A stretch of 64,000 nt of DNA from Rhodococcus sp. CH91 (GTDB lineage Bacteria > Actinomycetota > Actinomycetes > Mycobacteriales > Mycobacteriaceae), in contig NZ_JAKFYR010000009.1 in NCBI RefSeq assembly GCF_022554085.1, positions 124,001-188,000 of the forward strand. Reading direction: 5' to 3'. The first letter of the stretch is position 1; every line of letters begins with the position of its first letter. The notes beneath the pieces are model-generated. The model was not told the DNA's origin. It did not search any database and worked only from the letters and a program-made list of their open reading frames with translations. The translations under genes were made by a program, and so were the position numbers. Shown one piece after another: positions 14,821 to 46,456 of the stretch.

Positions 14821-14845
14821 GGCATGTTCCTAACGTCTGTACCGA

Positions 14846-14863
14846 ACCAAGCGATTGCTTGGT
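14846..14863. promoter_or_regulatory. KstR2-type palindrome, copy 1 (echA20/fadA6 promoter)
   Basis: ACCAAGCGATTGCTTGGT, a near-perfect inverted repeat (ACCAAGC-N4-GCTTGGT), lies between divergent echA20 and fadA6. It sits inside a 30-bp block (14839-14868) found unchanged at 46376-46405. The half-sites match the published KstR2 half-site (AnCAAG/CTTGnT), but the spacing is 6 bp rather than 2. The flanking genes are KstR2-regulon members in M. tuberculosis, which supports assignment to KstR2 or a close relative. Confidence 0.75.
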
Positions 14864-14947
14864 AAGTTAGCACAGGATAGCCGCTGGACCCAGAGGGTCG
14901 TCGTGGTCACCGGTCGTGCAGTACGACCAGAACATCGAGGAGAGAAG

Positions 14948-16165
14948 ATGCCCGAAGCAGTAATCGTGTCCGCAGTACGATCGCCGATCGGACGAGCACG
15001 TAAGGGCTCGCTCGCGTCGATCCGGCCGGACGACCTCGCGACGCAGATGGTCGCCGCGGCGCTCGCGAACGTCCCCGATCTCGACCCCACCGAGATCGAC
15101 GACCTCATGCTCGGCTGCGGCCAGCCCGCCGGCCAGTCCGGCTTCAACATGGCCCGCGTCGTCGCGGTGCAGCTCGGCTACGACTTCCTGTCCGGTGTCA
15201 CGGTCAACCGCTACTGCTCGTCGTCGCTGCAGACCACCCGCATGGCGCTGCACGCCATCAAGGCCGGCGAAGGCGACGTGTTCATCTCGGCCGGCGTCGA
15301 GTCGGTGTCGAGCTTCGTCACCGGTAACGCCGACGGCCTGCCGAACACGAAGAACCCGCTGTTCGACGATGCGCAGGCACGCAGTGCGAAGCTCGCCGAA
15401 GGCGGAGTGAAGTGGACCGACCCGCGCAGTGAGGGGCTCCTTCCGGATGTCTACCTCGGGATGGGACAGACCGCGGAGAACGTCGCCTCCTACACGGGGA
15501 TCTCGCGCGAAGACCAGGACCGCTGGGGCGTGCGTTCGCACAACCGCGCCGAGGAAGCGATCAAGAGCGGCTTCTTCGAGCGGGAGATCACCCCGGTGAC
15601 CCTCGCCGACGGCACTGTCGTCACCACCGACGACGGCCCGCGCCCGGGTACCACCTACGAGGCGGTCAGCCAGCTGAAGCCGGTCTTCCGCCCGGACGGC
15701 ACCGTGACCGCCGGCAATGCATGCCCGCTCAACGACGGTGCCGCCGCTCTGGTGATCATGTCCGACGTCAAGGCGAAGGAACTCGGACTCACCCCGCTCG
15801 CGCGCATCGTCTCCACGGGGGTCTCGGGCCTGTCGCCGGAGATCATGGGTCTGGGGCCGATCGACGCGACCCGCAAGGCCCTCGCCCACGCGAACATGGG
15901 AATCGACGACATCGATCTGTTCGAGATCAACGAGGCCTTCGCGGTCCAGGTGCTCGGTTCGGCACGTGAGCTGGGTATCGACGAGGACAAGCTCAACGTC
16001 TCCGGTGGCGCGATCGCGCTGGGTCATCCCTTCGGTATGACCGGGGCCCGCATCACCACGACGCTCATCAACAACCTGCGCACCCACGACAAGCAGTTCG
16101 GCGTCGAGACGATGTGTGTCGGCGGTGGCCAGGGCATGGCGATGGTGCTCGAGCGGCTCAGCTGA
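14948..16165 (+). CDS. fadA6: FadA6, thiolase of late steroid ring degradation
   Basis: Cytoplasmic acetyl-CoA acetyltransferase-type thiolase, 405 aa, assigned to the final thiolysis after IpdAB and FadE32 (Rv3556c type). The catalytic set is complete: nucleophile Cys90 (NRYCSSSLQ), His360 (ALGHPFGMTGAR) and Cys390 (ETMCVGGGQG), with NEAFAVQ near the third motif. ATG at 14948 follows AGGAGAGAAG. It diverges from echA20 and shares the palindromic operator, so C/D-ring genes on both strands are probably co-regulated. A hairpin separates it from the convergent ligase gene. Confidence 0.88.
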   Translation: MPEAVIVSAVRSPIGRARKGSLASIRPDDLATQMVAAALANVPDLDPTEIDDLMLGCGQPAGQSGFNMARVVAVQLGYDFLSGVTVNRYCSSSLQTTRMALHAIKAGEGDVFISAGVESVSSFVTGNADGLPNTKNPLFDDAQARSAKLAEGGVKWTDPRSEGLLPDVYLGMGQTAENVASYTGISREDQDRWGVRSHNRAEEAIKSGFFEREITPVTLADGTVVTTDDGPRPGTTYEAVSQLKPVFRPDGTVTAGNACPLNDGAAALVIMSDVKAKELGLTPLARIVSTGVSGLSPEIMGLGPIDATRKALAHANMGIDDIDLFEINEAFAVQVLGSARELGIDEDKLNVSGGAIALGHPFGMTGARITTTLINNLRTHDKQFGVETMCVGGGQGMAMVLERLS

Positions 16166-16176
16166 TCGAGGGCCTC

Positions 16177-16209
16177 ACGGGTGGGTACCGGCGTGCCGGG
16201 CCCACCCGT
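16177..16209. terminator. Bidirectional terminator, fadA6 and acyl-CoA ligase
   Basis: ACGGGTGGG (16177-16185) pairs with CCCACCCGT (16201-16209), with a nested CCGGC/GCCGG stem inside. It lies between convergent stops at 16165 and 16232. Confidence 0.75.
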
Positions 16210-16231
16210 TGCGGCCGGGGGATGCGCACGA

Positions 16232-17911
16232 TCACCAGGGGCCGTGCGTATCCCGCCACGCCTTGCGAATGATCTTCCCGGTGGCGTTGCGCGGCAGAAG
16301 GTTACGGGTCAGAGTCCACTGGGTGGGCACCTTGAAGTAGGCGAGACGTTCGGAGGCGAAAGTGGTCAGTTCCTCGGTGGTGACCGAGGAGCCCTCGACG
16401 AGGACGACCACCGCGACGACCTCCTGCCCCCATTCCGGGTGGGGAGCGCCGGTCACCATGCATTCGCGTACCGCGGGATGCTCGGACAGGACGCGTTCGA
16501 CCTCCGACGGGTAGACGTTCTCGCCGTTCTGATGGATGAGATCCGCGCGCCGGCCGACCAGTCGCAGCCGGCCGTTCTCCACGACTCCGAAATCTCCTGT
16601 GCGCAACCATCGGTCGGGGGTGATCGCCTCGGCCGTCGCGGCCTCGTCGTCCCAGTAGCCGAGCATGACGAACGGGCTGCGCACACAGATCTCGCCCACA
16701 TGACCGTCGGGGAGCCACGCCCCGGTCTGGTCCCGGATCTCCAGGCTCACCGTGATGATCGGTGCACCCACCGTGCCCGGATACTGCTCGAGTTCCGCGG
16801 CGGTGGCCACCGCGATCGAGGTGCTGCACTCGGTGATGGTGTAGCTGTCCACCATGGCGTGCTTTCCGAACGGAAGTCGTTCGCGCAGGCGCTGTTTGAA
16901 CTCCGGCGTCGACGGCTCCGACGACAGGGTGAATCGTGTCAGGGAGGTCAGATCGTATCCGTCGAGGTCCTCGTCCTCGAGCATCCGTGCCGCCATCGAC
17001 GGCACGGCCATCCAGTGCGTGACCTGCTCTGCCTCGATGAGTTCGAGCACCGGCCGCACCCCGTACCATCCCTGATTCATCACCACGGCGCTGCCGGTGG
17101 CCAGGCGCGGCACGATCGTGTTGTGCAGGCTCGTGATGTGGAACAGCGAAGACGTCAGCAGGTACCGGGAATCCGACGGCACCGCTCGGTTGTAAACTGC
17201 TCCGGTCCAGATCGTCGCGATCGCGTCGAGATACCGGTTGTAGTCGACGACGGCCAGCAGATTCCGCTGGGAATGCAGCGCCCCCTTCGGGTCGCCGCTC
17301 GTGCCGGAGGTGTACAGGAGCACCGCGGGATCGTCCTCGGCGATCCTCGGCGGTGGGGGCTGCGCGCCGTCGAATTCCTCGATCAGCCGTGGCAGGTCGT
17401 CCTCGATCGACAGCACCACGGTGCGGTCGCGGTCGATGCCGGCCACCGCCGCGGCGCGCGGGCCGTCGACGAAGACCACCCGGGGCCGGGAGTGGCGGAT
17501 GCCGAACTCGAGTTCCGGCTGGACCCACCAGGCGTTCAGACCCACGGAGATCGCGCCGAGTGCCTGCGTAGCCCAGAACACGGTGACCCATTCCGGTCTG
17601 TTCGCGGACAGGATCGCCACCCGATCGCCCGAACGCACCCCGTACCGCTCGTGGAGCGCCGCGGCCAGGGCGTACGACATGCGGGCGTTCTGGGCGAAGG
17701 TGATGCGCCGGTCGGACGTCACCAGGTACTCGCGGTCGCCCCACGCGAGGGACTGGGACAGCAGGTCCGCGACGGCGACGTCGCGTTTACGCATGACGGG
17801 CATCTCGGTGCCCAGAACTTCCTGCATCACGATCTCGAACTCGCCTCCGGGGCCGGTGAGCCGCGAGATCAGCTGATCGGAGAAGTGGGACGGGTCGGAG
17901 GGGATGCTCAT
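16232..17911 (-). CDS. Acyl-CoA ligase (ANL superfamily, FadD type)
   Basis: AMP-forming acyl-CoA synthetase, 559 aa. Motifs in order: ATP-binding [17 protein letters not shown] (near residue 200), substrate/adenylate region [11 protein letters not shown] (about 355), hinge [21 protein letters not shown] (about 440) and the C-terminal lysine in [14 protein letters not shown]. The substrate cannot be read from sequence; location beside fadA6, a MaoC hydratase and kshA suggests a steroid-derived or side-chain acid. ATG at 17909-17911 ([14 protein letters not shown]) matches related ligases; an ATG nine bases upstream is an alternative. Divergent from the MaoC gene across 238 bp with no clear operator. 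Confidence 0.82.
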
Positions 17912-18149
17912 CGCCTGCATCCCACCGGTTCCCCTGCACGCTTCACGAACGTCCCCTCCTCCATCGAGTGCGTCTCGCCAGAATCTCACGGCCCGTCATC
18001 CCGGCTTCGAATGTACCGGTGAGTGGGACGGGCGGTGACGGGCACCACCACTCTCCCTAGCCTGTGACCTGGGCGTCTGTGGGGAAGCCGGGGTCCTGTG
18101 TCCGTAGGGCCGCCGCCCGGCGCCGTACGTCAGAAAGGACTCCATTCGA

Positions 18150-18962
18150 ATGACCGCAACGACGGCGTCGTCGCCCGCGCAGTGGCGTGGCCACGATCTG
18201 GGTACCCGCACGGTCGGCTACGACGAGCGGGACGCGATCCTGTACGCGCTCGCCGTAGGGGCCGGTGCGACGGACCTCGATCTCGTGTTCGAGGACAGGC
18301 TGCGGGTGCTGCCGACGTTCGCCCTGACGCTGGCCCAGTGGGCGCCGGACGCGCTCGGCGCACTCGGTGCGTTCGATACGAGTACCGCACTCCACGGCTC
18401 TCAGAGTCTCGAGGTTCTCGCGCCGTTGCCGCGGTCCGGGGAGATCACGATGTCGGCGCGTGTCGGCGAGGTCTGGGACAAGGGCCGGGCGGCGGTCTTC
18501 GAGGTCGTCGTCGAGAGCGACTTCTTCGTGGCGACCTGGTCGCTGTTCGCGCCGGGGGCGGGAGGCTTCGGCGGCGAGCGCGGACCCTCGGCGCCGGCTG
18601 CGCCCGAGGGAGAGGCCGATGTGGTCGGCACACTCTCCACCGGTGCGGACCAGGCCGCCCTCTACCGGCTGACGGGCGATCGCCACCACATCCACATCGA
18701 TCCCGAGGCCGCTGCGCGGATCGGGCAGCCCCGCCCCATCCTGCACGGACTGTGCACGCTGGCGGCGGCGACCTTGCCGCTCGCCGACATGCTCGGCGCA
18801 CATCCCGCCGATCTGAGGGAGTTGTTCGGCCGATTCGCCGCTCCCGTCTTCCCCGGCGACCGGGCGCAAGTGCGCGCGTGGGGTGGCCCGGCCGATGCCC
18901 GGTTCGACGTCGCCACCGAGACCGGCGCCGTCCTTTCCGGCGGTCGCGCCGTATTCGCTTGA
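18150..18962 (+). CDS. MaoC-family enoyl-CoA hydratase (double hot-dog)
   Basis: A 270-aa hydratase adding water to 2-enoyl-CoA thioesters, of the two-hot-dog-domain type related to M. tuberculosis Rv3538. The N-terminal half (residues 1-125) is the non-catalytic domain. The C-terminal half carries the R-hydratase signature YRLTGDRHHIHIDPEAA (Asp and His of the D-x4-H motif) followed by RPILHGLCT. AGAAAGGA precedes the ATG. It is followed after 26 bp by a FadD17-like ligase, forming a two-gene unit that could activate and hydrate a steroid side-chain acid. Confidence 0.82.
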   Translation: MTATTASSPAQWRGHDLGTRTVGYDERDAILYALAVGAGATDLDLVFEDRLRVLPTFALTLAQWAPDALGALGAFDTSTALHGSQSLEVLAPLPRSGEITMSARVGEVWDKGRAAVFEVVVESDFFVATWSLFAPGAGGFGGERGPSAPAAPEGEADVVGTLSTGADQAALYRLTGDRHHIHIDPEAAARIGQPRPILHGLCTLAAATLPLADMLGAHPADLRELFGRFAAPVFPGDRAQVRAWGGPADARFDVATETGAVLSGGRAVFA

Positions 18963-18988
18963 TCCGCAAAACTGTCTGGAGGAAAGAC

Positions 18989-20668
18989 TTGGACACCTTC
19001 GCAGAAGTAGTGCGCTCTCGTCACGGTGACCCGAAGGTGGGGTTGCGTTTCGAGGACCAGCAGTGGACCTGGGACGAGGTGATCCGGGAGAGCGCCGATC
19101 GTGCCGCCGCGATCGTGGCGACCGTGCCGGCTCCGGCAGATCGTCAGCGCCACATCGGGGTCCTGCTCGAGAACGTTCCGGACTTCGTGTTCTGGATCGG
19201 TGCGGGAGCTCTCGCCGGTGCCGCCGTCGTGGGTATCAATGCCAGCCGCAGCGGCCCGGAGATCGCGCAGGACATCAAGCACGCGGACATCGACCTGGTG
19301 GTGACCGAGTCCCGTCTCGCTCATCTCCTCGAGGGCGCCGAGCACGGACTTTCCGCCGACAAGATCTACGACATCGACGAAGCGCGATACCAGGAGTGGC
19401 TCGAGCCCTTCCGCGGCGCCGACCTGCCGGAGACGCAACCCTCGCCCGAGGACATCGCGCTGTTGCTGTTCAGCTCGGGTTCCACCGGTGCCCCGAAGGC
19501 CGTGATCGTGAGTCAGGGACGGCTCGCCCGCCTGCTCGGCCCCCTCACCGAACGTGTGCGCATGCGGCCGGATTCGGTGGCCTATCTGTGCATGCCGCTG
19601 TTCCACGGCAACGCCCTCATGCTCAATCTCGGCACGGCCATGCAGGCCGGCGCGACCGTCTGCCTGATCCGCAAGTTCTCCGCGAGCCGGTTCGCCGACG
19701 ACATCCACCGCTACGGCGCCACCTTCGTCAACTATGTCGGACGCGCCCTGTCGTACGTCCTGAGCAGGCCGGAGGACCCCCGAGACCGTACGAGCACCCT
19801 GGAACTGGCGTTCGGCACCGAGGCCTCGGAAGCGGACGTCGCCCGTTTCTCCGAGCGCTTCGGTTGCACGGTCGTCGAGGGCTACGGGCTGAGCGAGGGC
19901 GTCTTCCGGATCAACCGGACCCCGGACACCCCGTCCGGATCGCTCGGCGTCGCAGTCGGCGGGGTGGACGTCCGCATCCTCGACGAGGCCACCGGGGAGG
20001 AATGCCCGCGCGCCCGGTTCGACGAATCGGGTCGTCTGCTCAACAGCGAGGCCGTCGGCCAGATCGTCGCGTGCGGTGTCGCGCACACCTTCGAGGGTTA
20101 CTACAAGAACCCCGGGGCGATGGCCGATCGCATCAAGGGCGACGACTTCTGGTCGGGTGATCTCGGGTACCGCGACGAGAACGGCTTCTTCTACTTCGCG
20201 GGCCGGTCCTCCGACTGGCTTCGCGTCGACAGCGAGAACTTCTCGGCTGCCCCCGTCGAACGCATCCTTCTGCGGGTGCCCGGCATCCTCTCGGCACCGA
20301 TCTTCGCCGTGCCGGACCCCACGACCGGGGATCAGGTCATGTGCGCCGTCGAACTCGACGCCGATGCGGAGTTCGATCCGGCGGCCTTCGGGGCGTTCCT
20401 CGCGGAGCAGCCCGATATGGGGGACAAGTGGTGGCCGCGGTTCGTGCGCGTGACCGCCCAGATCCCGCTCACGGGGAGCAACAAGGTGAACAAGGCCCCC
20501 CTCCGGGCGGTCGCGTGGAACACCTCCGACCCGGTCTACGTGCGCGTGGGCCGGACCTCCGAGTACATCCTGCTCGACGACGAGGCACGGGCACGCATCG
20601 AGGAGGAGTTCGTCGCCAACGGTCGGGCGGCCCTGTTGCCGACCGCAGAACCGGCCCCGGCAGTGTGA
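18989..20668 (+). CDS. FadD17-like acyl-CoA ligase
   Basis: ANL-family ligase, 559 aa, closest in pattern to M. tuberculosis FadD17 (shared HIGVLLENVPDF, FSASRFADDIHRYGATFVNY and LGYRDENGFFYFAGRSSDW). Motifs: P-loop LLFSSGSTGAPKAVIVSQ, adenylate motif VEGYGLSEG and the C-terminal SNKVNKAPLR lysine. FadD17 activates C24-branched or C24 steroid side-chain acids, so a similar role is likely but the exact acid is not shown. Start: TTG at 18989, preceded by GGAGGAAAG at ideal spacing; no better ATG/GTG lies nearby. Ends in a strong hairpin. Confidence 0.82.
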   Translation: MDTFAEVVRSRHGDPKVGLRFEDQQWTWDEVIRESADRAAAIVATVPAPADRQRHIGVLLENVPDFVFWIGAGALAGAAVVGINASRSGPEIAQDIKHADIDLVVTESRLAHLLEGAEHGLSADKIYDIDEARYQEWLEPFRGADLPETQPSPEDIALLLFSSGSTGAPKAVIVSQGRLARLLGPLTERVRMRPDSVAYLCMPLFHGNALMLNLGTAMQAGATVCLIRKFSASRFADDIHRYGATFVNYVGRALSYVLSRPEDPRDRTSTLELAFGTEASEADVARFSERFGCTVVEGYGLSEGVFRINRTPDTPSGSLGVAVGGVDVRILDEATGEECPRARFDESGRLLNSEAVGQIVACGVAHTFEGYYKNPGAMADRIKGDDFWSGDLGYRDENGFFYFAGRSSDWLRVDSENFSAAPVERILLRVPGILSAPIFAVPDPTTGDQVMCAVELDADAEFDPAAFGAFLAEQPDMGDKWWPRFVRVTAQIPLTGSNKVNKAPLRAVAWNTSDPVYVRVGRTSEYILLDDEARARIEEEFVANGRAALLPTAEPAPAV

Positions 20669-20675
20669 GCGCAGC

Positions 20676-20720
20676 GGGACGCGGGGTCGCCGGGCCTCGC
20701 CCGGCGGCGGCCCGCGTCCC
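20676..20720 (+). terminator. Terminator after FadD17-like gene
   Basis: Outer arms GGGACGCGGG and CCCGCGTCCC enclose a perfect inner stem GCCGGGC-CTC-GCCCGGC. This separates the ligase from kshA, whose promoter must lie in 20721-20868. Confidence 0.8.
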
Positions 20721-20868
20721 TCGGCCCGGGGGGAAGGTCTCGAACAGTGAGACGCCACCATCAGGGGTGATGCCGATCACCTAGCGTTTCGGACGTATCG
20801 CGACGGATCCTCCCAGCGGACTCCGCCGCCTGAAATCCTCAACGCTTCCCTTCCTCCCGAAAGGACGG

Positions 20869-22035
20869 ATGACCGTGAGCCTCGGCACTTCCGAACAATC
20901 CGAAATCCGTGAGATCGTCGCCGGATCGGCTCCCGCCCGCTTCGCCCGTGGCTGGCACTGCCTGGGCCTGTCGAAGGACTTCAAGGACGGCAAGCCGCAT
21001 TCGGTCCAGGCCTTCGGTACCAAGCTCGTGGTGTGGGCCGACAGCAACGACGAGATCAAGATTCTCGACGCGTACTGCCGGCACATGGGCGGCGATCTCA
21101 GCCAGGGCACCGTCAAGGGCGACGAGATCGCGTGCCCCTTCCACGACTGGCGCTGGGGCGGCAACGGTCGCTGCAAGAACATCCCCTACGCACGACGCGT
21201 TCCTCCGATCGCGAAGACCCGCGCGTGGCACACCCTCGATCAGGACGGGCTGCTGTTCGTCTGGCACGATCCCCAGGGGAATCCGCCGCCCGCCGACGTG
21301 ACCATCCCGCGTATCGAGGGCGCGACGAGCGACGAGTGGACCGACTGGGTCTGGTACACCACCGAGGTCGACACGAACTGCCGTGAGATCATCGACAACA
21401 TCGTCGACATGGCGCACTTCTTCTACGTGCACTATTCCTTCCCGGTCTATTTCAAGAACGTCTTCGAAGGTCAAGTGGCCAGCCAGTTCATGCGCGGGCA
21501 GGCCCGTGAGGACACCCGGCCGCATGCGACGGGTCAGCCGAAGATGCTCGGAAGCCGTTCCGATGCAAGCTATTTCGGTCCGTCCTTCATGATCGACGAT
21601 CTCGTCTACCAGTACGAGGGATACGACGTCGAATCGGTCCTGATCAACTGCCACTACCCGGTCTCCCAGGACAAGTTCGTCCTGATGTACGGGATGATCG
21701 TCAAGAAGTCCGACCGCCTCGAAGGTGAGAAGGCGCTGCAGACCGCCCAGCAGTTCGGCAACTTCATCGCCAAGGGCTTCGAGCAGGACATCGAGATCTG
21801 GCGGAACAAGACCCGCATCGACAACCCGCTGCTGTGCGAGGAGGACGGCCCCGTCTACCAGCTGCGTCGCTGGTACGAGCAGTTCTACGTCGATGTCGAG
21901 GAGGTCACGCCGGAGATGACCGACCGCTTCGAGTTCGAGATGGACACCACCCGCCCGGTGGCTGCCTGGATGAAGGAAGTCGAGGAGAACCTCGCCCGTA
22001 AGGCTCTCGAGCAGCAGTCCACCACCACGGGCTAG
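20869..22035 (+). CDS. kshA: KshA, oxygenase of 3-ketosteroid 9-alpha-hydroxylase
   Basis: Rieske non-haem iron oxygenase, 388 aa, that hydroxylates C9 of 3-ketosteroids and, with KstD, opens ring B. Rieske [2Fe-2S] ligands: Cys70, His72, Cys89, His92 (YCRHMGG and CPFHDW). Catalytic iron: His183, His188 (DMAHFFYVH) and Asp307 (FEQDIEIW). ATG follows AAAGGA. Its reductase kshB lies about 1.3 kb downstream on the other strand. Rhodococci carry several KshA copies differing in substrate preference; the neighbourhood suggests a version dedicated to this accessory block. No KstR box is visible upstream. Confidence 0.93.
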   Translation: MTVSLGTSEQSEIREIVAGSAPARFARGWHCLGLSKDFKDGKPHSVQAFGTKLVVWADSNDEIKILDAYCRHMGGDLSQGTVKGDEIACPFHDWRWGGNGRCKNIPYARRVPPIAKTRAWHTLDQDGLLFVWHDPQGNPPPADVTIPRIEGATSDEWTDWVWYTTEVDTNCREIIDNIVDMAHFFYVHYSFPVYFKNVFEGQVASQFMRGQAREDTRPHATGQPKMLGSRSDASYFGPSFMIDDLVYQYEGYDVESVLINCHYPVSQDKFVLMYGMIVKKSDRLEGEKALQTAQQFGNFIAKGFEQDIEIWRNKTRIDNPLLCEEDGPVYQLRRWYEQFYVDVEEVTPEMTDRFEFEMDTTRPVAAWMKEVEENLARKALEQQSTTTG

Positions 22036-22044
22036 GAGCAGATC

Positions 22045-22314
22045 ATGCAGAACCGGATGGAACCGTTGCGGTGCGGCGAATGCGCCGCGCAGGTGCTGGT
22101 CCAGAAGAACAGCTGGGAGCACACTTCCATCCAGTGGAACGCCGATGCGCGCCGCCGTTGTCCTGTCGTGCAGGACGAGGGCGGCCGCGACGGCCGCCCC
22201 GGCGCGCCCCGGATGTCGTGCTCGAACCTGGACGCCTCGATCGTCCGGGCTGCCACCGCAGGCGTCATCGAGGTGTTCGACGACACGCCGGTCCGTGGCC
22301 CTATCGTGCAGTGA
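22045..22314 (+). CDS. Small cysteine-containing protein in the kshA operon, function unknown
   Basis: An 89-aa soluble protein, not recognised. It has CGEC near its N-terminus (Cys10, Cys13), later cysteines in RRRCPVV and MSCSNLD, and a conserved-looking core QKNSWEHTSIQWNADA, so a small zinc-binding or redox fold is possible. The ATG lies 9 bp after the kshA stop with AGGAG before it, and an SDR gene follows after 49 bp, so it is cotranscribed with kshA. It is not a standard ferredoxin. Cysteine spacing alone does not establish metal binding. Confidence 0.7.
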   Translation: MQNRMEPLRCGECAAQVLVQKNSWEHTSIQWNADARRRCPVVQDEGGRDGRPGAPRMSCSNLDASIVRAATAGVIEVFDDTPVRGPIVQ

Positions 22315-22363
22315 CCGTTCCCTTCCGACCTTCCGCTCCCGACTACTCCTCGAAGGACCAACG

Positions 22364-38769: not shown

Positions 38770-39348
38770 ATGGGCAAGGTCGCCTGGGGATTCACGTGCT
38801 CGATCGACGGCTTCATCGCCGGACCCGGTCACGACATGAGTTGGATGTCCGCCGCGGAACCGCTGGCCGAGGGCACCACGGAGCGCATGGCGGGAGACGT
38901 CGCAGTGATCATCTCAGGCCGGGCCGGTTACGACGCGGCCCGGGCACAGAAGGGGGAGCGGGACGAGACGACGTCCGAGGCGTACGGAGGTGCCTGGTCG
39001 GGGACCGAGTTCATCCTGACCCATCGTCCGGAAGAACTCGCCGACGACCCGGCCGTCGTCCCGATGAACTGCGATGTGGTCGAGGCGATCCGTCGCGCTC
39101 GTGACATCGCGGGTGACCGGGATGTGCAGATCATCAGCGCCGATATCGCCCGGCAGGCACTCGAACACGATCTCATCGACGAACTGCAGGTTTTCGTGGC
39201 GCCGGTGTTCCTCGGTGACGGTGTTCGCATCTTCGATGTTCCGGGCGGTCGCCGGATCGACTGGGAACTGGTCGACATCTACGAGGACAGCCCGCGGAGT
39301 TTCGGCCGGACCTACCGGCCGAAAGGACGACGATTGTCCGAGTCGTAG
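38770..39348 (+). CDS. RibD C-terminal/dihydrofolate-reductase-like protein
   Basis: A 192-aa protein of the RibD C-terminal (DHFR-like) fold, probably an NADPH-dependent reductase of unknown substrate. It shows the family start KVAWGFTCSIDGFIAGPGHD and the ending DELQVFVAPVFLGDGVRIFD. ATG at 38770 follows GAGCAGAGG; the open frame extends upstream but those codons are Arg-rich and unlike the family. Monocistronic by position; its stop lies 16 bp from the convergent LapA-domain gene. Confidence 0.8.
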   Translation: MGKVAWGFTCSIDGFIAGPGHDMSWMSAAEPLAEGTTERMAGDVAVIISGRAGYDAARAQKGERDETTSEAYGGAWSGTEFILTHRPEELADDPAVVPMNCDVVEAIRRARDIAGDRDVQIISADIARQALEHDLIDELQVFVAPVFLGDGVRIFDVPGGRRIDWELVDIYEDSPRSFGRTYRPKGRRLSES

Positions 39349-39364
39349 GACGCGACCGGAGTCG

Positions 39365-39790
39365 TCAGGGGCGGCCTCGCGACGTGGTGCCGAGTGTGCG
39401 TTGTCTGTTGGCGGCGTGTCGGAGCTGCAGGATCCGCAGACCCCCGGACAAGCCGACGATCACCGCGCCGGCGATCGCGGCGAACAGCAGTGCCACACCC
39501 AGCGGCAGCGAGAAGTCCCACGCGAACAGTTCGAGGGTGACACTGTCGAGGTTCTGCAGAATGAACACCAGCAGCAACAGCAGAACGAGTATTCCGATCA
39601 CCAGGGCGGTCCAGAGCGCACCCGTGCGAGTGCGCTTGATGCCCTTGCCGCGGGCGAGATCGGGATGCAGGTCGGCGGTAGCGTCCGGATCCGGCGTCGC
39701 ACCGGAGGGGGGTACGGGGCTGCTGCCGCGCCGTGATGGTGACGAGAAGTCGGGGTTCGGGTCGTCCGGGCCCCTCGAGGTAGTCGACAT
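39365..39790 (-). CDS. LapA/DUF1049-domain membrane protein
   Basis: A 141-aa protein with a Pro/Ser-rich cytoplasmic N-terminus (about residues 1-48), two membrane helices (about 52-78 ALWTALVIGILVLLLLLVF and 88-112) and a basic tail. The hairpin with QNLDSVTLELFAWDFSLPLG between the helices is the DUF1049/LapA signature. In Gram-negatives the related proteins take part in lipopolysaccharide assembly; the role in actinobacteria is unknown. ATG at 39788-39790 is chosen because the family N-terminus is short. Confidence 0.8.
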   Translation of the reverse strand: MSTTSRGPDDPNPDFSSPSRRGSSPVPPSGATPDPDATADLHPDLARGKGIKRTRTGALWTALVIGILVLLLLLVFILQNLDSVTLELFAWDFSLPLGVALLFAAIAGAVIVGLSGGLRILQLRHAANRQRTLGTTSRGRP

Positions 39791-39839
39791 GTTCGGTCGA
39801 GTACCCACACTTCATTCCCGCTATCCCGATCCCGGGCGG

Positions 39840-40358
39840 CTACCGCCCGTCGAGTCCGAACGCTCCGCGGTAGAAGACCATCGGGCTCTCGTCCCCCAGG
39901 CACTCGAGTTCGGCGACGCGACCGATGACGACATCGTGGTCACCGGCGACGTGAACGTCCTCGACCGAGGCGTGCACCCGCATGAGAACGCCCGGCAGCG
40001 ACGGAGTGCCCCAGCGGGAGAGTTCCCAGTCGAGACCGTCGAACTTGAGGCCCCGGCTGGACCCGAAGCGCGAGCACAGGTCGGTCTGCTCCGCGCCGAG
40101 GACGTTGACGGTGAACCAGCCGGCGCGGCGCAGGCGCGGCCAGGCGCGTCCGCGGTGATCCGCGCAGAACAACACGAGGGGCGGTTCGAGCGACACCGAC
40201 GCGAACGACTGGCACGCGAAGCCGGTGGGCCCGTCGTCGTCGAGGCCGGTCACGACAGTGACGCCACTGGCGAAGCGGCCCATGGCGCGGCGCATCTCGT
40301 CCGGGCTGGGCAGGTCGACATCGAGCACGGCTTCGTGGGTCGGTATCCGGGTCTGCAT
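39840..40358 (-). CDS. HsaB-like flavin reductase
   Basis: A 172-aa flavin:NADH reductase of the HpaC/HsaB group, which supplies reduced flavin to HsaA-type monooxygenases. Recognisable blocks: MRRAMGRFASGVTVVTGLDD, GFACQSFASVSLEPPLVLFC, the GDHDVVIGRV segment and FYRGAFG at the C-terminus, all as in M. tuberculosis HsaB. It lies about 7 kb from the two HsaA-like genes and diverges from a KstR-like regulator gene across 290 bp. It is the only HsaB-like gene in the window and so the probable partner of the local oxygenases. Confidence 0.85.
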   Translation of the reverse strand: MQTRIPTHEAVLDVDLPSPDEMRRAMGRFASGVTVVTGLDDDGPTGFACQSFASVSLEPPLVLFCADHRGRAWPRLRRAGWFTVNVLGAEQTDLCSRFGSSRGLKFDGLDWELSRWGTPSLPGVLMRVHASVEDVHVAGDHDVVIGRVAELECLGDESPMVFYRGAFGLDGR

Positions 40359-40648
40359 ATGCCTCACTCCGATTCGCTCTGGTCGCTGCCTGCGGCGACG
40401 TCCTTCGAATCGAGCGTATGGGTGACGCGCGACACCCCCGGAACGGATTCTCGCTGAGTGGACTTCCGGCCGGAACTTCGCGATCGGGCGATGTTCCGAG
40501 GTCGTGGTCCCACCTTGCGGGACGAGGATCGGCCCTTCGGTGAGTGCCCGGATCGTCCCGCCGGACCGCGCAGAATCTACGATGCAGACGATCTGCCCGT
40601 CGGGCACGGTGCAGAATCGACGGGCTCGCATCGTGGAAAGGGGGGCCG

Positions 40649-41272
40649 GTGCCCAGAATCGGTAAGGCGCGGGACGGAGCCGAGCCGACGTCGGACGATC
40701 AGCGGCAGCGACAGGTCCGGATCCTCGACGCCGCAGCGAGGCTGGGATCCGAGCACGAGCTGGCACGCGTGCAGATGACCGAGGTGGCGAAAAGCGCGGG
40801 AGTGGCCATCGGCACCCTGTACCGGTACTTCCCGTCGAAGACGCATCTGTTCGTGGCGGTACTGCTCCATCGTCTGGAGCTGGGCGCCTCGCGGCTCCCC
40901 GCGCGGAAACCGGAGATGAGTGCGCGGGATGCGATCACGGAAGTGCTGATCGAGATGACCAGGCGATTCGTCGATCGGCCGCTCCTGGCGTCCGCCATGC
41001 TGTTGTCCAACAGCACTGCCCCGGCGGCCGTGGTGCCGGACTCCGAAGAGGTGAGGCGGACGTTCCATCGGATCCTGTTCGACAAGGCGGGCCTCGACGA
41101 TCCGACCGAACAGGACCGGAATGCCGTGCGGCTGCTGTCGATGATGTGGTCCGGGCTGCTGGTGGCGTACCTCAACGGGGCGGCGACTCTCGAGGAGACG
41201 GAGGCAGATCTGCGCAGCAGTTGCGAGCTGCTGCTCGTCCACCTCGAGGAGCGGACGGCCGAAACGACGTGA
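40649..41272 (+). CDS. KstR-like TetR-family regulator
   Basis: A 207-aa TetR repressor. The HTH region VQMTEVAKSAGVAIGTLYRY closely follows KstR (VQMRAVADRADVAVGTLYRY), with the same RYFPSK continuation; the C-terminal domain is less similar. KstR controls cholesterol genes and responds to 3-oxo-cholestenoyl-CoA. GTG at 40649 is taken as the start after GGAAAGGGGG. It could be KstR itself or a paralogue for the accessory block; the adjacent HsaB-like gene favours a steroid role. No clear KstR box lies in the 290-bp divergent gap. Confidence 0.8.
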   Translation: MPRIGKARDGAEPTSDDQRQRQVRILDAAARLGSEHELARVQMTEVAKSAGVAIGTLYRYFPSKTHLFVAVLLHRLELGASRLPARKPEMSARDAITEVLIEMTRRFVDRPLLASAMLLSNSTAPAAVVPDSEEVRRTFHRILFDKAGLDDPTEQDRNAVRLLSMMWSGLLVAYLNGAATLEETEADLRSSCELLLVHLEERTAETT

Positions 41273-41320: not shown

Positions 41321-42451
41321 TTATTCGGCAGCCCCGATCAGGGGCGCGGTCTCGAGCACGTCGCCGAGCGCGGCTGCGGTGGCATCCGCGCCGCCGAGGG
41401 TGAAGGCGATCTGACGTCCCCACAGGAAGTAGCGGTGGATCGGATAGTCGATGTCGGCACCGATGCCACCGTGCAGGTGCTGGGCGGTGAGCCCGACGCG
41501 GATACCGGCGCGGGACGCCCACCACTTCGCGACCAGCGCGGCCGACGCGGCCTCGTCCTCGCGATCCGAATCGACGAGCCATGCCGCGCGCCGCATCGTG
41601 AGGCGGATCGCCTCGGTGTCGAGGTAGGCATCCGCGGCACGCAGGGCGACACCCTGATTGGTGGACAGCGGGCGACCGAACTGCACGCGCTCGGAGGTGT
41701 AGAGAGCGGTGGCGCGCAGCGCTTCCTCACACACACCGAGCTGGAGTGCTGCGAGGGCGATGCGGATCCGCAGCCGCGCCCACGCGGCGATCTCGGCGCC
41801 GTCACCGGGCAGGACATCCTCGGCACCGACGTGCACATCCTCGAACCGGAGGGCTGCGTCCGCGCCGCGGCCCGTGACGGCCAGCGGGGTGACGGTCACG
41901 CCGGTCGCATCCGCCGGGGCGATCACCACGGCGATCGAATCGTCCTCGCAGCGCACCGGGACGACGACGCCCGCCGCGGCCGGAGCCCACGGGACGGACG
42001 GAATCTCACCGGTGACGACGAGATCGTCGCCCTTGCGGATCGCGGTCAGGACCGGGCTCGCCCCGGGAGCGTCGTCGAACGCTCCGACGAGAACGACCGA
42101 ACCGTCGACCATGCCCGGAAGGTATCGCGCGGTCTGCGCGGAGGTACCGAACTGCGCGATCGGCATCGCGGCACCGGCGACCACGGCCCACACCGGCACG
42201 GGAGCGACCCGGCGACCCTGCTGCTGCAGCACGGTCGTCAGACCGAGCATGCCCATACCGGCGCCACCCGCAGACTCCGGCAACGCCAGACCGATCAGGC
42301 CGGAGTCGGCGAGGGACTGCCACAGGGTGGCGTCGAAGCCACCCTCGGTCCGCTCCACCTCGACCACCCGCTCGACCTTGGCGAGGGAACCGAAGACCTG
42401 CGAGGCGAGGTCCTCGACCGCGACCAGATCGTCATCGAGTTCGAATTCCAT
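41321..42451 (-). CDS. fadE28: Acyl-CoA dehydrogenase, ChsE1/FadE28-like subunit
   Basis: A 376-aa acyl-CoA dehydrogenase subunit that pairs with the upstream 405-aa partner. In M. tuberculosis, FadE28-FadE29 (ChsE1-ChsE2) is a heterotetramer that dehydrogenates the three-carbon side-chain CoA ester of the steroid. Features: LADSGLIGLALPESAGGAGM, RVQFGRPLSTNQGVALRAAD and AQHLHGGIGADIDYPIHRYF (FAD-domain helix). The start follows 1 bp after the partner's stop. Assignment to FadE28 rests on position beside ltp2/chsH1 and on pairing; other heteromeric FadE pairs such as FadE26/27 look similar. Confidence 0.78.
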   Translation of the reverse strand: MEFELDDDLVAVEDLASQVFGSLAKVERVVEVERTEGGFDATLWQSLADSGLIGLALPESAGGAGMGMLGLTTVLQQQGRRVAPVPVWAVVAGAAMPIAQFGTSAQTARYLPGMVDGSVVLVGAFDDAPGASPVLTAIRKGDDLVVTGEIPSVPWAPAAAGVVVPVRCEDDSIAVVIAPADATGVTVTPLAVTGRGADAALRFEDVHVGAEDVLPGDGAEIAAWARLRIRIALAALQLGVCEEALRATALYTSERVQFGRPLSTNQGVALRAADAYLDTEAIRLTMRRAAWLVDSDREDEAASAALVAKWWASRAGIRVGLTAQHLHGGIGADIDYPIHRYFLWGRQIAFTLGGADATAAALGDVLETAPLIGAAE

Positions 42452-42452
42452 G

Positions 42453-43670
42453 TCAGCTCCTCTCGGCCGGCGTCTTGGCCGACGGCTCGGGACGGCGACG
42501 TGCGCCGAGGGTCATTCCGAGGGTCTTCGCGGCCACGATCTCGCGCAGGACCTCGTTGGTGCCGCCACCGAAGGTGTTGTTCTGGGCTCGGCGCGCGAGT
42601 GCTTCCACGCGACCTTCGATCACCGCGCCGGGGCTGCCGGGACGCAGGAGCCCCTTGGCGCCGAGAACTTCCTGCAGCATGCCGTAGGCGGCGACCACGC
42701 CTTCGGTGCCGAAGATCTTCGCCGCGGCGGAGTCACCGCCTCCGAGGGTATTGGCGGCGATGTCCGCCACCAGACGCAGGTTGACGAGGTCGGTCGCGGC
42801 CAGCAGCGCGTAGACCTCGGCGAGAGTCTTGCGCACCCACGGCACGTCGAACACGACGCCGGGACCGAACGGTTCCTGCTTCGCCCAGGCGAGCACTTCG
42901 GCGTACATCTCGTTGGCGATGCCCCCGCGCGCGGCCAGCGCGACGCGTTCGTGGTTGAGCTGGCTCGTGATGAGGGTCCAGCCGCCGTTGAGTTCGCCGA
43001 CGACGTTGCTCACCGGGACCCGGATGTTCTCGTAGTAGGTCACTGCGGTGCTGATGCCGCCGACCGTCTGGATCTCGGTGGCCGAGAATCCGGGAGACGA
43101 GGTGGGGACCAGCACGACCGAGATGCCCTTGTGGCGGGGGGCGTCCGGATCGGTGCGGACCGCGAGCCAGATCCAGTCGGCGAAGATGGCGGAGGAGGTG
43201 AACAGCTTGTTGCCGTCGATCACGAGTTCGTCGCCCTCGAGGCGCGCCCGGGTCTGGAGCGCTGCGAGGTCGGTGCCGGCACCGGGTTCGGTGTATCCGA
43301 TCGCGAACTTCAGCTCACCGGTCAGGATCTTGGGAAGGAAGTAGTCCTTCTGTTCCTGCGTGCCGTACTTCATCAGTGCCGGGGCCACGGTGTTGAGCGT
43401 GACCAGCGAGACCGGTGCGCCGGCGCGGATCGTCTCGTCGTAGAAGACGTACAGCGCCTCGGGGTCCTCCCCGCGTCCGCCGTACTCTTCGGGCCAGCCC
43501 AGGCCGAGCCAGCCGTCGGTGCCCATCTGGCGGTAGATCTTGTCGAAGACCGGGCCGCCCTCGGTCTGGTCGACGAGGGCGCGACGATCCTCGTCGTTGA
43601 TGATGCGGGCGAAGTACTCCCGCAGTTCGGTGCGCAGCCGCCGTGACTTTTCGGACAGCTCGGGGTGCAT
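42453..43670 (-). CDS. fadE29: Acyl-CoA dehydrogenase, ChsE2/FadE29-like subunit
   Basis: A 405-aa acyl-CoA dehydrogenase subunit with ELREYFARIINDEDRR at the N-terminus and blocks GWLGLGWPEEYGG, AIGYTEPGAGTDLAALQTRA (FAD/substrate) and LTFGGG-type ending NNTFGGGTNEVLREIVA. It acts with the smaller subunit encoded downstream on 3-oxo-4-pregnene-20-carboxyl-CoA. AGGAGACCTC precedes the ATG. Its sequence also resembles FadE26, so the name depends on context: it follows ltp2 by 44 bp and lies with chsH1. Confidence 0.78.
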   Translation of the reverse strand: MHPELSEKSRRLRTELREYFARIINDEDRRALVDQTEGGPVFDKIYRQMGTDGWLGLGWPEEYGGRGEDPEALYVFYDETIRAGAPVSLVTLNTVAPALMKYGTQEQKDYFLPKILTGELKFAIGYTEPGAGTDLAALQTRARLEGDELVIDGNKLFTSSAIFADWIWLAVRTDPDAPRHKGISVVLVPTSSPGFSATEIQTVGGISTAVTYYENIRVPVSNVVGELNGGWTLITSQLNHERVALAARGGIANEMYAEVLAWAKQEPFGPGVVFDVPWVRKTLAEVYALLAATDLVNLRLVADIAANTLGGGDSAAAKIFGTEGVVAAYGMLQEVLGAKGLLRPGSPGAVIEGRVEALARRAQNNTFGGGTNEVLREIVAAKTLGMTLGARRRPEPSAKTPAERS

Positions 43671-43714
43671 GAGGTCTCCTGAGAATTATTCGGAGGACTG
43701 GGATTCGGCAGGGT

Positions 43715-44899
43715 CTAGCGATCGGCCGAGAGCACGATCGCGCTGTGCGGCACCGGCGATCCGCCCGTGACGAGCACGTTGTCCAGATTCTTGGCCGGCT
43801 GGTTCACGGATGTGCCGCGGATGAGTCGGACGCCTTCGGCGATGCCGTTGACGCCGTGGATGTAGCCCTCGCCGAGCTGACCACCGTGGGTGTTGATCGG
43901 GAGCCGCCCGTCCACTTCGAGGTTGCCGTCGGCGATGAAATCCTTGGCCTCACCGCGACCGCAGAAGCCGTACTCCTCGAGCTGGAGCAGGACCATGGGG
44001 GTGAACGCGTCGTACAGGATTGCGGCGTCGATACCCTCGGGACCGAAGCCGGCCTGGGCCCACATCTGCCGGGCGACGAGTTCGACCTCGGGCATCGCGT
44101 CGATGTCCTCGCGGTAGTAGCTGCTCATCGAGATCTGCTGAGGGCCGACGCCCTGCGCCGCGGCGGTGATGATCGCCGGAGGATGCGGAAGATCTCGCGC
44201 GCGTTCGGCACTCACGATGACCAGTGCCTGGCCGCCGTCGCTCTCCTGGCAGCAGTCCAGCAGGCGCAGCGGGTCGGCGAGCATCCGGGAGTTCTGGTGG
44301 TCGTCGATGGTGATGGGGCGCTCGTAGAACCAGGCCTTGGGATTGTTCGCCGCGTGCTTGCGTGAGAGCACCGAGATCTGCCCGAAGTCCGCGCTGGTCG
44401 CCCCGTACTTGTGCATGTAGGTGCGGGCCAGGAAGGCCTCCTGCTGAGCGGGAGTGAGCAGACCGTAGGGGTTGATCCAGTTCCGGTATTCCTGGTCGGT
44501 GTTGGAGTTGTATGCGAAAGGCGGTGGGCCGGCGCCGAACCGGTGGCCCGAGCGCTCGTTGAAGGCGCGGTAGACGACCACGACGTCGGCGACACCGCTC
44601 GAGACGGCCAGTGCGGCCTGCTGCACGGGCGCGCAGGCACCGCCGCCGCCGTGAGGGATCCGGCTGAAGAACTTCAGTTCCGGGATGCCCAGCGCGCGGG
44701 CGACGGCGATCTCGGGGTTGGTCTCCATGGTGAACAGCGCGAAGCCGTCGACCTCTTCGACACCGATCTGTGCGTCCTCGAGAGCGGCGAGGACCGACTC
44801 GCATGCGAGTTGCCATTCGCTGCGGCCGGAGTTCTTGGAGAACTCGGTGGCTCCGATGCCGGCGATGGCGGCGGCTCCGGAGAAGCCCTTGACGGTCAT
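43715..44899 (-). CDS. ltp2: Ltp2, side-chain retro-aldolase (thiolase-like lyase)
   Basis: A thiolase-fold lyase, 394 aa, that releases propionyl-CoA from 17-hydroxy-3-oxo-4-pregnene-20-carboxyl-CoA in the last side-chain step. Tyr296 (LYDAFTP) and Tyr346 (GEGYIHG) match the two catalytic tyrosines described for the Thermomonospora Ltp2 (294 and 344). The thiolase histidine motif is absent. Ltp2 works only with a DUF35 partner, here encoded two genes upstream as a separate protein. ATG overlaps chsH1 by 4 bp. Length agrees with the family. Confidence 0.9.
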   Translation of the reverse strand: MTVKGFSGAAAIAGIGATEFSKNSGRSEWQLACESVLAALEDAQIGVEEVDGFALFTMETNPEIAVARALGIPELKFFSRIPHGGGGACAPVQQAALAVSSGVADVVVVYRAFNERSGHRFGAGPPPFAYNSNTDQEYRNWINPYGLLTPAQQEAFLARTYMHKYGATSADFGQISVLSRKHAANNPKAWFYERPITIDDHQNSRMLADPLRLLDCCQESDGGQALVIVSAERARDLPHPPAIITAAAQGVGPQQISMSSYYREDIDAMPEVELVARQMWAQAGFGPEGIDAAILYDAFTPMVLLQLEEYGFCGRGEAKDFIADGNLEVDGRLPINTHGGQLGEGYIHGVNGIAEGVRLIRGTSVNQPAKNLDNVLVTGGSPVPHSAIVLSADR

Positions 44900-45306
44900 C
44901 GTGTCTTCCTCTCGTAGGGCTCCACCACGACCTCGGCGGTGACGTGGACGCCTCTGCTGTTGCGGCCCTGCACCTTCAGGGTGACGGTCGCGCCGTCGAC
45001 GGCGGTCACCTCACCGTTCATGTGCATGGGGTCGCCGGGGAAGCAGGGCACGCCCAGGCGCAGCGACGCGCGGCGTACACGCGCCGACGGCCCGGTCCAG
45101 TCGGTGACGTACCGGTCGACGAAACCGTTCGTGGCGTTGATGCTCATGAAGACGTCCGGTGTGCCGCGACCGAGTGCGGCGTCCGGATCGTGGTGCACGT
45201 CCTCGAAATCCTGCGAGGCGATCGCGGTAGCCACGATGGTGGTGCGATCCATCGGCAGGACGAGTTCGGGAAGTTCCTGTCCGACAGTGCATTCGGCGAG
45301 GTTCAT
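44896..45306 (-). CDS. chsH1: ChsH1, catalytic MaoC-type subunit of steroid enoyl-CoA hydratase
   Basis: Single hot-dog subunit, 136 aa, with the catalytic D-x4-H motif (Asp33, His38 in SQDFEDVHHDP). In the ChsH1-ChsH2 hydratase the catalytic residues reside in ChsH1, and ChsH2 completes the dimer. It hydrates the C17-C20 enoyl-CoA formed by ChsE1-ChsE2. It overlaps the DUF35 gene upstream and ltp2 downstream by 4 bp each, indicating strict coupling. Confidence 0.9.
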   Translation of the reverse strand: MNLAECTVGQELPELVLPMDRTTIVATAIASQDFEDVHHDPDAALGRGTPDVFMSINATNGFVDRYVTDWTGPSARVRRASLRLGVPCFPGDPMHMNGEVTAVDGATVTLKVQGRNSRGVHVTAEVVVEPYERKTR

Positions 45307-45710
45307 GCTTCTCCTCCGGGCTTGCGCAGCTGAGGCAGGATCTCGCCGTGTGCGTGCTCGGCGAATCCCACCTCGAGTTCCATGCCGATCTCGAGGGTGT
45401 CGTGGTCGACGCCCGCGATGTCGGCGACGATGCGGATCCCCTCGTCGAGGTCGATCAGTCCGACGGCGAGCGGGTACTCGAAGGCCGGATCCTGCGGGTG
45501 GTGAATGACCGTCCAGCTGTGAAGCGTTCCGCGCCGTGAGGATTCGACGGTCTTCCATTCGAACGAGCGGCACGCGGGGCATGCCGGACCCGGAGGATGG
45601 CGCAGAGTGCCGCACTCGCTGCACTGCTGGATCTCGAGTCGGCCCTCACGGACGGCGTCGAACCAGAACTGGTTGTCCTGGGTGATGGTGAGCCGGGGGA
45701 CGGCGGTCAT
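45303..45710 (-). CDS. Stand-alone DUF35 (zinc ribbon + OB-fold) protein, partner of Ltp2
   Basis: A 135-aa protein: rubredoxin-like zinc ribbon with CxxC-x8-CxxC (CSECGTLRHPPGPACPACRS, residues about 30-49) followed by an OB-fold acyl-CoA-binding domain. In M. tuberculosis the same domain is the C-terminal half of ChsH2 (Rv3542c) and binds Ltp2. Here it is a separate gene whose ATG overlaps the stop of the hydratase half by 4 bp, so the single fused gene is replaced by two coupled ones. Confidence 0.87.
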   Translation of the reverse strand: MTAVPRLTITQDNQFWFDAVREGRLEIQQCSECGTLRHPPGPACPACRSFEWKTVESSRRGTLHSWTVIHHPQDPAFEYPLAVGLIDLDEGIRIVADIAGVDHDTLEIGMELEVGFAEHAHGEILPQLRKPGGEA

Positions 45711-46261
45711 CGCGTCTCCTTGTCGGTGTTCGGGTTGAACCGGAGCATCCGGAAGCGTTCCTCGGCGACGAGCTCGCCGTTCTGGTCCTCGTAGCGCTTG
45801 TACAGCGTGAAGAATCGGCCGTCGCCGAGACCTGTTCGCTTGACCTCGGATACGGACTCGATCGTGTAGTGGGCGGTGATGTGGTCGCCCGGGACGAGTT
45901 CGCGGTGGTAGTCCTGCTCGACGTTCGTCGCGACGACGGAGGTGAAACCCTCCCGATCGAGGTCGGCGAGCATCCGGGAGTATGCGAAGTCCTCCACGAC
46001 GCCCTCGGCACGCTTGCGCTGGACCTCGCGCCAGCGGCGGTAACCGGCCATGATCCAGGTGGAGATCATGGCGGGCGGGCACACGATCGAATCGCGCCCG
46101 GTCTCGCGAGCGGCCTCAGCGTCGACGTAGATCGGATTGAAGTCGTCGTGTGCCTCGACCCAGTTGCGGATCATGGCGTCGTTGACGACGTATCGGGCCA
46201 CGCGGGGCGGTTCGGCCACCTGCCCGACGTATTTCTCGTAATCCTGCTCGACGGTCTGCAT
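45707..46261 (-). CDS. chsH2: ChsH2 hydratase half (MaoC-like)
   Basis: A 184-aa MaoC-like protein equal to the N-terminal half of ChsH2. It contains VEAHDDFNPIYVDAEAARET and SIVCPPAMISTWIMAG. The histidine of the R-hydratase motif is replaced by Tyr, as expected for the non-catalytic partner of ChsH1. ATG at 46259-46261 follows GAGGAG; a GTG 24 bases upstream is an alternative. It is first in the operon chsH2N-DUF35-chsH1-ltp2-fadE29-fadE28, whose promoter must lie near the palindrome at 46383-46400. Confidence 0.85.
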   Translation of the reverse strand: MQTVEQDYEKYVGQVAEPPRVARYVVNDAMIRNWVEAHDDFNPIYVDAEAARETGRDSIVCPPAMISTWIMAGYRRWREVQRKRAEGVVEDFAYSRMLADLDREGFTSVVATNVEQDYHRELVPGDHITAHYTIESVSEVKRTGLGDGRFFTLYKRYEDQNGELVAEERFRMLRFNPNTDKETR

Positions 46262-46382
46262 GGCCCAATCACTCCTCTTCGGCACGCGCGTTCGTCGTCA
46301 CGCTAAGTGGGGCCGACAAGCAACATCCCCCGATTCCCACTGAGCAGGAGCGGGGACCGGAGGGTGGGGGAGCCGGTACCGA

Positions 46383-46400
46383 ACCAAGCGATTGCTTGGT
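46383..46400. promoter_or_regulatory. KstR2-type palindrome, copy 2 (chsH2/SDR promoter)
   Basis: ACCAAGCGATTGCTTGGT again, within the same 30-bp sequence (46376-46405) as copy 1 and in the same orientation. It lies between the leftward chsH2 operon and the rightward Rv3549c/Rv3548c-type SDR operon. No KstR box is visible here, so the side-chain operon may follow this second control system. Confidence 0.75.
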
Positions 46401-46456
46401 AAGTTGTCGGCGTGAGACCCGCGCATCCTGCGGGGTGAACGACGTGGAGGCAGCGA

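Follow-up and report, generated by a model that had tools for sequence, protein, structure and literature searches.

Background

Passages of Kendall 2010 (PMC3068626) describe binding of KstR2 in Mycobacterium tuberculosis to a site between Rv3549c and Rv3550, genes that lie head to head, and list for R. jostii ro04652/04653 a predicted motif instance, marked 'not done' in the column for the electrophoretic mobility shift assay (EMSA). Among bile-acid systems, passages of Bergstrand 2016 (PMC4810484) place the Rhodococcus cholate cluster remote from the cholesterol cluster, and the cluster is reported to be present in R. ruber Chol-4 (PMC6498646). HIP-CoA is named as the effector of KstR2 in PMC5380842. 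Here we analyze a stretch of 64,000 nucleotides from Rhodococcus sp. CH91 (contig NZ_JAKFYR010000009.1, positions 124,001 to 188,000; the window), in which two identical 30-bp sequences, denoted OP1 and OP2, stand at either end of a block of steroid degradation genes. An earlier interpretation made from the letters alone (the sequence-only reading) had proposed that the locus known from M. tuberculosis is split here, with one copy of the control region left at each junction. The comparisons reported below suggest that an ancestral KstR2 operator was probably copied, that the block came to lie between the same-orientation copies, and that the interval was later filled from both ends.

Compared with the M. 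tuberculosis and R. jostii operators in the passages of PMC3068626, the locus shares the R. jostii 24-bp core, the flanking genes (as seen in unsplit relatives) and a nearby KstR2 homologue, but it has two operator copies, and the divergent transcripts are 31.5 kb apart with the steroid block between them. With the Rhodococcus cholate cluster, as far as it is described in the passages of PMC4810484, the block has in common a CasG-type ligase and HsaA (both over their cut-offs), and CasI-, HsaB-, HsaC-, HsaD- and KstR-like matches fall below cut-off; here the block sits inside a KstR2-type C/D-ring locus and has another gene order. No description of the split locus was found in the open-access literature searched, a scope outside which most subscription papers fall.

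Two identical copies of a predicted KstR2 operator

OP1 and OP2 (GTACCGAACCAAGCGATTGCTTGGTAAGTT) agree at all 30 positions, have the same orientation and each contain a palindrome, exactly as the sequence-only reading had reported and at the coordinates that it gave; the palindrome (ACCAAGCGATTGCTTGGT) has 7-bp arms around 4 bp. They are the only perfect palindrome sites in the window. When up to three mismatches to the 18-mer palindrome ACCAAGCNNNNGCTTGGT were allowed, the window held 3 matches against 1.56 expected by shuffling, so that the loose pattern is unremarkable; by simple arithmetic with equal base frequencies (our own estimate), the expectation for an exact 30-bp direct repeat in 64 kb is about 2 × 10−9. 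The pair is not an assembly artefact because both sites are carried by five other genomes (G002, G004, G006, G011 and G017; such handles denote the genomes compared) that have the locus on a contig of 4.5–5.5 Mb.

The 30-mer is a predicted KstR2 operator. Its 24-bp core is identical, at 24 of 24 positions, to the R. jostii ro04652/04653 instance listed in the passages of Kendall 2010 (PMC3068626). In unsplit relatives, the operator lies between divergent echA20 and Rv3549- or Rv3548-like genes, and the window has one such gene beside each copy. A KstR2 homologue is encoded on the same contig about 5 kb to the left of the window (C39:118624–119244; E = 1.2e-72 to 4w1u and 1.4e-72 to 4w97, PDB chains named KstR2), followed directly by a thiolase gene of family NF005865, which from gene order is taken for FadA6. 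A third KstR2-type site, located by position and not by motif, lies at C39:116514 between a FadD3-family gene and a fadE-like gene; its centre is CAATTG, and it shares 23 of 30 positions with the 30-mer, including 7 of the 12 outside the palindrome. The pattern CAAGYRCTTG occurs at 4 sites in the genome (backwards control, 58), none adjoining a window-type gene, and KstR-type motifs are found at neither OP1 nor OP2. The starts of the inner genes nearest to the palindromes are 84 bp (thiolase) and 121 bp (side-chain operon) away; in the passages of PMC3068626, KstR2-controlled genes start 22–82 bp from the site and an uncontrolled one 285 bp from it. In the proposed reading, KstR2 would bind both copies, and KstR2 control of the inner block genes is put forward as a hypothesis.

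Two KstR-type palindromes, TAGAACGTGTTCCA and TAGAACAGGTTCTA, were seen elsewhere in the window, at 50747 and 58575, just upstream of a cyp125-like gene and an LLM oxidoreductase gene. The protein adjoining the thiolase of R. ruber was considered as a KstR2 candidate and dropped, having no PDB or NCBIfam match at the limits used.

Unsplit and split loci among relatives

The exact 18-mer was found in 46 of 121 genomes, including all 18 of the genus. Regions were mapped with the window proteins in the 17 other genomes of the genus and in 17 of the 28 genomes outside the genus that have an 18-mer match. Several identities were inferred: R. ruber NBRC 15591 (G003), R. aetherivorans DSM 44752 (G015), R. 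zopfii (G008), R. gordoniae (G014), R. coprophilus (G016), R. yananensis (G009), R. wratislaviensis (G040) and R. rhodnii (G065). In 16 of the 17 mapped regions outside the genus, a single operator lies directly between echA20 and an Rv3549- or Rv3548-like gene, with no block; in the remaining one (G068), the 18-mer lies elsewhere. Within the genus, R. ruber and R. aetherivorans are unsplit, with a single operator and no block, and the other 16 of 18 genomes, the window included, are split around a steroid block, with one operator beside echA20 and a second, in the same orientation, beside the Rv3549-like gene. The two operators are on one contig and 9.6–34 kb apart in 13 of the 16 split genomes, and on separate contigs in G005, G009 and G013. 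Of the 35 mapped genomes, 34 have echA20 next to OP1 or to the single operator, G068 being the exception.

In a pattern scan of named genomes, 65 of 86 stretches are unsplit (54 with echA20/Rv3549 and 11 with echA20/Rv3548), 15 are of the split type (from 9 strains), 4 are cut by the end of the stretch and 2 lie elsewhere. For 8 of the 11 non-genus genomes outside the long-region mapping, 3-kb stretches were read: one has an unsplit echA20/Rv3549 pair, and the other seven have different neighbours or none that was recognised. G018, G046 and G060 were left out. The head-to-head arrangement that the sequence-only reading gave for M. tuberculosis is supported by the passages of PMC3068626; the genomes with one operator and no block for which it asked exist, and the split genomes have the proposed operator copy at each junction. 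It had set a conserved operator against a mark of insertion. The 30-mer does not recur at many other promoters of its own genome, where its 18-mer has exactly 2 matches in 4.89 Mb, OP1 and OP2 (backwards control, 0), and in relatives a related block, not unrelated genes, lies between the copies; the 30-mer answers to both descriptions, being an operator that is conserved and a trace of the split.

R. ruber, R. aetherivorans and R. wratislaviensis also carry the whole 30-mer at their single operator. An Rv3549 orthologue is missing in R. ruber and R. aetherivorans (best match 56%), and this absence alone is no pointer to a past block because an Rv3548-like gene adjoins the single operator in other unsplit lineages too (R. 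erythropolis, R. globerulus, R. qingshengii, Tomitella and others; 11 of 86 stretches). Away from the echA20 locus, two genomes each have one more exact copy of the 18-mer, close to an IclR-like gene (G001:C14:110991 and G005:C8:9740).

Comparison of OP1 and OP2

Across the 16 split genomes, OP1 and OP2 agree at all 30 positions in 6 genomes, at 29 in 4, at 28 in 2, at 27 in 2 and at 26 and 23 in one each, while either copy agrees with the third site of the same genome at 21–26 positions. By its sequence, OP2 resembles the operator of the echA20 locus rather than a general consensus. The flanks of the two copies differ in their likeness to the single site of R. ruber: for OP1, the left flank agrees at a mean of 25.6 of 30 positions (range 6–29) and the right flank at 16.3 (12–18; shuffled, 9.1), and for OP2 the mean for the left flank is 8.3. 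OP1 thus retains the old surroundings, perhaps because the echA20 promoter is located there. The right flanks of single sites in other genera agree with that of R. ruber at 7–18 positions, and the stretch to the right of the operator may be free to change.

Duplication of the operator in place does occur, because R. rhodnii has a partial tandem copy at its single site and G070 has two 18-mers 36 bp apart (L012 1501–1554), beside fadE- and fadD-like genes. For the origin of the second copy, our preferred guess is that the operator was first duplicated locally and that insertion between the two sites followed.

Order of events

A tree was built from nine flanking genes of 26 genomes, some genes being missing in some genomes. 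The R. ruber lineage (R. ruber and R. aetherivorans) branches outside the 16 block genomes, with a support of 79 for all codon positions and 98 for positions 1 and 2; one split fits best because this lineage branches first. Within the block genomes, those with a thiolase gene at OP1 form clade A (the window, G002, G004, G006, G011, G013, G014, G016 and G017), and those lacking it (G001, G005, G007–G010 and G012) form a grade below that clade (node support 100 or 69). This topology suggests that the outer parts were added after the split and the core block.

The distribution of the outer parts was traced in the same genomes. The thiolase is found at OP1 in clade A only (the G013 copy is partial, at a contig end), and as one copy away from OP1 in R. 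ruber and in 6 of the 7 grade genomes; G005 has a partial copy elsewhere, R. aetherivorans has none at the limit used, and R. coprophilus has the gene in both places (94% and 91%). Ltp2 of the side-chain operon is at OP2 in 8 of 9 clade A genomes (not in G011). In the grade, the best Ltp2 match is at most 68% in six genomes, and G005 has none. High-identity copies (88–92%) occur in R. ruber and R. aetherivorans (G003:C4 and G015:C194; 91–92%), as a second copy in R. gordoniae (G014:C76; 92%) and in two other genera (G030:C23 and G034:C1; 88–89%). This patchy spread of Ltp2 across genera looks like separate horizontal spread.

The sequence-only reading had offered duplication or insertion of a large block at, or through, an operator as an explanation, in which case the HsaA/HsaC/KshA/KstD block would have arrived as a unit. 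Insertion stands in outline, given the unsplit relatives and the tree, and the core is widely shared. Arrival as a unit is not supported in that form, because the outer parts, the thiolase beside OP1 and the fadE29-to-chsH2 operon beside OP2, stand at these places in one derived clade only, and because the operators lie anywhere from 9.6 to 34 kb apart.

The history that we propose would begin with the 30-mer operator between the divergent KstR2-regulon transcripts echA20-ipdABC and the Rv3549/Rv3548-like SDR genes. Once the R. ruber lineage had diverged, the locus would have opened at the operator in an ancestor of the branch to which R. zopfii, R. yananensis, R. coprophilus, R. gordoniae and the window strain belong, and a bile-acid-type block for steroid ring degradation would have been placed between two same-orientation copies. 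Both halves of the old pair would thereby stay under a switch, echA20-ipdABC under OP1 and the SDR genes under OP2. One clade would later have gained the thiolase gene at OP1 and the side-chain operon at OP2; as these two read away from the operators, each operator is once more flanked by divergent transcripts.

Origin of the block

In the window, the CasG-type ligase and one HsaA score over the NCBIfam cut-off, and matches to CasI-, HsaB-, HsaC-, HsaD- and KstR-like families fall below it. Block content was scored in the 13 single-contig blocks at 55% identity and half coverage. At these thresholds, KstD and the HsaA of 31673 were not found in the same 5 blocks (G002, G007, G008, G011 and G012), and KshA and HsaC were not found in one (G011). 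Related clusters with another gene order are present elsewhere in R. ruber, R. wratislaviensis, R. rhodnii, Williamsia (G056) and P. equi (G055), and R. aetherivorans has a shorter related gene set; the KstR-like regulator (~50%) and the FadD17-like ligase (~48%) of the clusters are distant versions relative to the block. In four midpoint-rooted gene trees, whose branch supports were not read, the block proteins are monophyletic. Block KshA is nearest to the R. ruber cluster, and for the HsaA-like and HsaC-like proteins the closest group comprises R. ruber, P. equi and second copies in the block genomes. Among the clusters compared, those of R. ruber and neighbouring genera hold the core's nearest relatives. 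By its sequence relationships, the core thus looks to be a bile-acid-type cluster whose ancestry is local, not a distant import.

Plasmids were searched as possible donors. The OP1 region gave just 3 short partial matches, and the HsaA-like and Ltp2-like proteins matched 375 and 564 records, the best at 60% and 62% identity, respectively. On plasmid pDND3A of R. gordoniae (L329 4831–6166), a FadE gene precedes a PRK07851-type thiolase gene that has both its ends but lacks the middle.

Alternative explanations

Several observations weigh against a copied operator and a single, later filled split. In G009, the two copies agree at just 23 of 30 positions, no better than either does with the third site (26 and 24). 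To the right of OP2, the sequence is unlike that at the R. ruber single site (mean 8.2 of 30, range 4–13; shuffled, 9.3), which counts against the reading because a simple insertion would leave the ancestral stretch there; given the possible freedom of that stretch to change, we regard this flank as neutral or slightly against simple insertion. The support for clade A, 96 in one analysis, falls to 75 in another, and the tree was built from the locus's own genes, on which the placement of R. ruber depends. Finally, neither OP1 nor OP2 conforms to the strict 14-bp consensus AnCAAGnnCTTGnT, whose one match in the genome (C12:356314) has no window-type protein within the surrounding 3 kb. The R. 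jostii instance in Kendall's own table, among the passages of PMC3068626, also fails this consensus, for which reason we treat it as descriptive and call the operator only predicted.

Independent origin of OP2 at the SDR genes, with no copying and a likeness imposed by the demands of KstR2 and the promoters, would account for the G009 value and would fit the strong constraint on the operator, the same 30-mer being found in R. wratislaviensis. A local copy fits better than such convergence because the third KstR2-type site matches the 30-mer at so few positions (23 of 30, and 7 of 12 outside the palindrome) compared with 30 of 30 between OP1 and OP2, and we regard convergence as very improbable. 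We give even less credence to an integrative element or a transposon as the source of the repeats, whether as attachment sites or as a target-site duplication. The repeats are direct, are about as long as attachment sites and have a palindromic core, but no integrase or transposase is named among the 30 of 30 called block genes of the window (27 scanned with NCBIfam and 3 with Pfam, the scan covering the called genes of this one block only), and there is no tRNA gene in the window.

A circle carrying its own KstR2 operator could also have integrated by one crossover in the shared operator, leaving direct repeats. The same-orientation copies at both ends of the block agree with this, as do the strict KstR2-type site ACCAAGCACTTGCT beside an Rv3549-like SDR gene in the bile-acid-type cluster of R. 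ruber and the extra 18-mers near other accessory genes in G001 and G005. However, ACCAAGCACTTGCT differs from the 30-mer, neither the 30-mer nor the 18-mer is present in any of the relatives' clusters examined, and 30 bp of homology is short for recombination, so that we consider integration of a circle unlikely. Slightly less probable in our estimation is a split that preceded the divergence of the R. ruber lineage, with R. ruber and R. aetherivorans later losing the block together with OP2 and their Rv3549-like gene. Both lack an Rv3549 orthologue, which makes the number of events about equal to that of a later gain, but the two branch first, Rv3549 loss recurs in other unsplit lineages, and their operator has an OP1-like flank and then GTGGAGGC at approximately the spacing of the OP2 copy (by eye), as in a locus that was never split. 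We therefore favour copying of the ancestral operator, with the block placed between the copies, over these explanations.

More speculatively, and with considerable doubt, the divergent operator might be a docking site, its copies shielding the old regulon from insertions and other steroid-breakdown genes collecting between them under the same repressor. If so, upper (side-chain, A/B-ring) and lower (C/D-ring) degradation would form one jointly regulated island. The proposed history would make the locus a polarised case of a regulon that survived being cut in two, with unsplit, core-split and further-filled states in living relatives, which would be natural replicates for testing whether a copied operator keeps the halves of a pathway in step and recruits genes. 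For annotation, the predicted KstR2 regulon should not be assumed to be contiguous in this branch of Rhodococcus.

Gene content of the locus

Table 1 Features at and between the two predicted operators (window positions)
Feature	Position	Strand	Family or evidence	Comment
OP1, first 30-mer copy	14839..14868		palindrome 14846-14863	between echA20 (-) and thiolase gene (+)
OP2, second 30-mer copy	46376..46405		palindrome 46383-46400	between chsH2-type operon (-) and Rv3549-like SDR gene (+)
ipdA (13152-14030), ipdB (12397-13155), ipdC (11324-12400)	11324..14030	-	FabK-like or CoA-transferase-like matches and order	
echA20	14059..14820	-	NF005925, over cut-off	left half of putative ancestral divergent pair
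PRK07851-type thiolase	14948..16165	+	NF005890, over cut-off	probable later addition beside OP1; not FadA6
CasG/FadD19-type steroid-24-oyl-CoA synthetase	16232..17920	-	NF052580, over cut-off	left end of shared core
Rest of core block	18150..41272		MaoC, FadD17/CasI-like, KshA-like, SDR, KshB-like, MFS, OYE, IclR, HsaD-like, HsaA-like, HsaC-like, HsaA, KstD-like, HsaB-like, KstR-like TetR	
Core-region genes in few or no relatives	36600, 38044, 38770		MFS, TetR, RibD_C	
Side-chain (igr-like) operon	41321..46261	-	two FadE, Ltp2-like, MaoC, DUF35, FAS1-DH-region protein	probable later addition beside OP2
Rv3549-like SDR gene	46457..47233	+	NF005893, over cut-off	right half of putative ancestral divergent pair
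Rv3548-like SDR gene	47230..48144	+	NF005861, over cut-off	

The names ipdA, ipdB and ipdC rest on gene order and published passages. The labels Rv3549-like and Rv3548-like come from gene order and not from comparison with the M. tuberculosis proteins themselves. The thiolase beside OP1 was at first read as FadA6, a name now given instead to the separate NF005865 thiolase next to kstR2; relocation of a KstR2-regulon gene to OP1 was accordingly withdrawn, leaving copying or relocation of a PRK07851-type thiolase.

At 45303–46261, the MaoC-like and DUF35 parts of ChsH2, which are one protein in M. tuberculosis, are encoded in two adjacent frames of 184 and 135 aa (Pfam FAS1_DH_region and ChsH2 C-terminal domains). 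To the right of the Rv3548-like gene, the gene at 48224–48883 encodes a protein of 219 aa that has a GNAT domain and, at its start, a weak gyrase-A-like stretch; this gene stays near the Rv3548-like gene in many of the mapped genomes.

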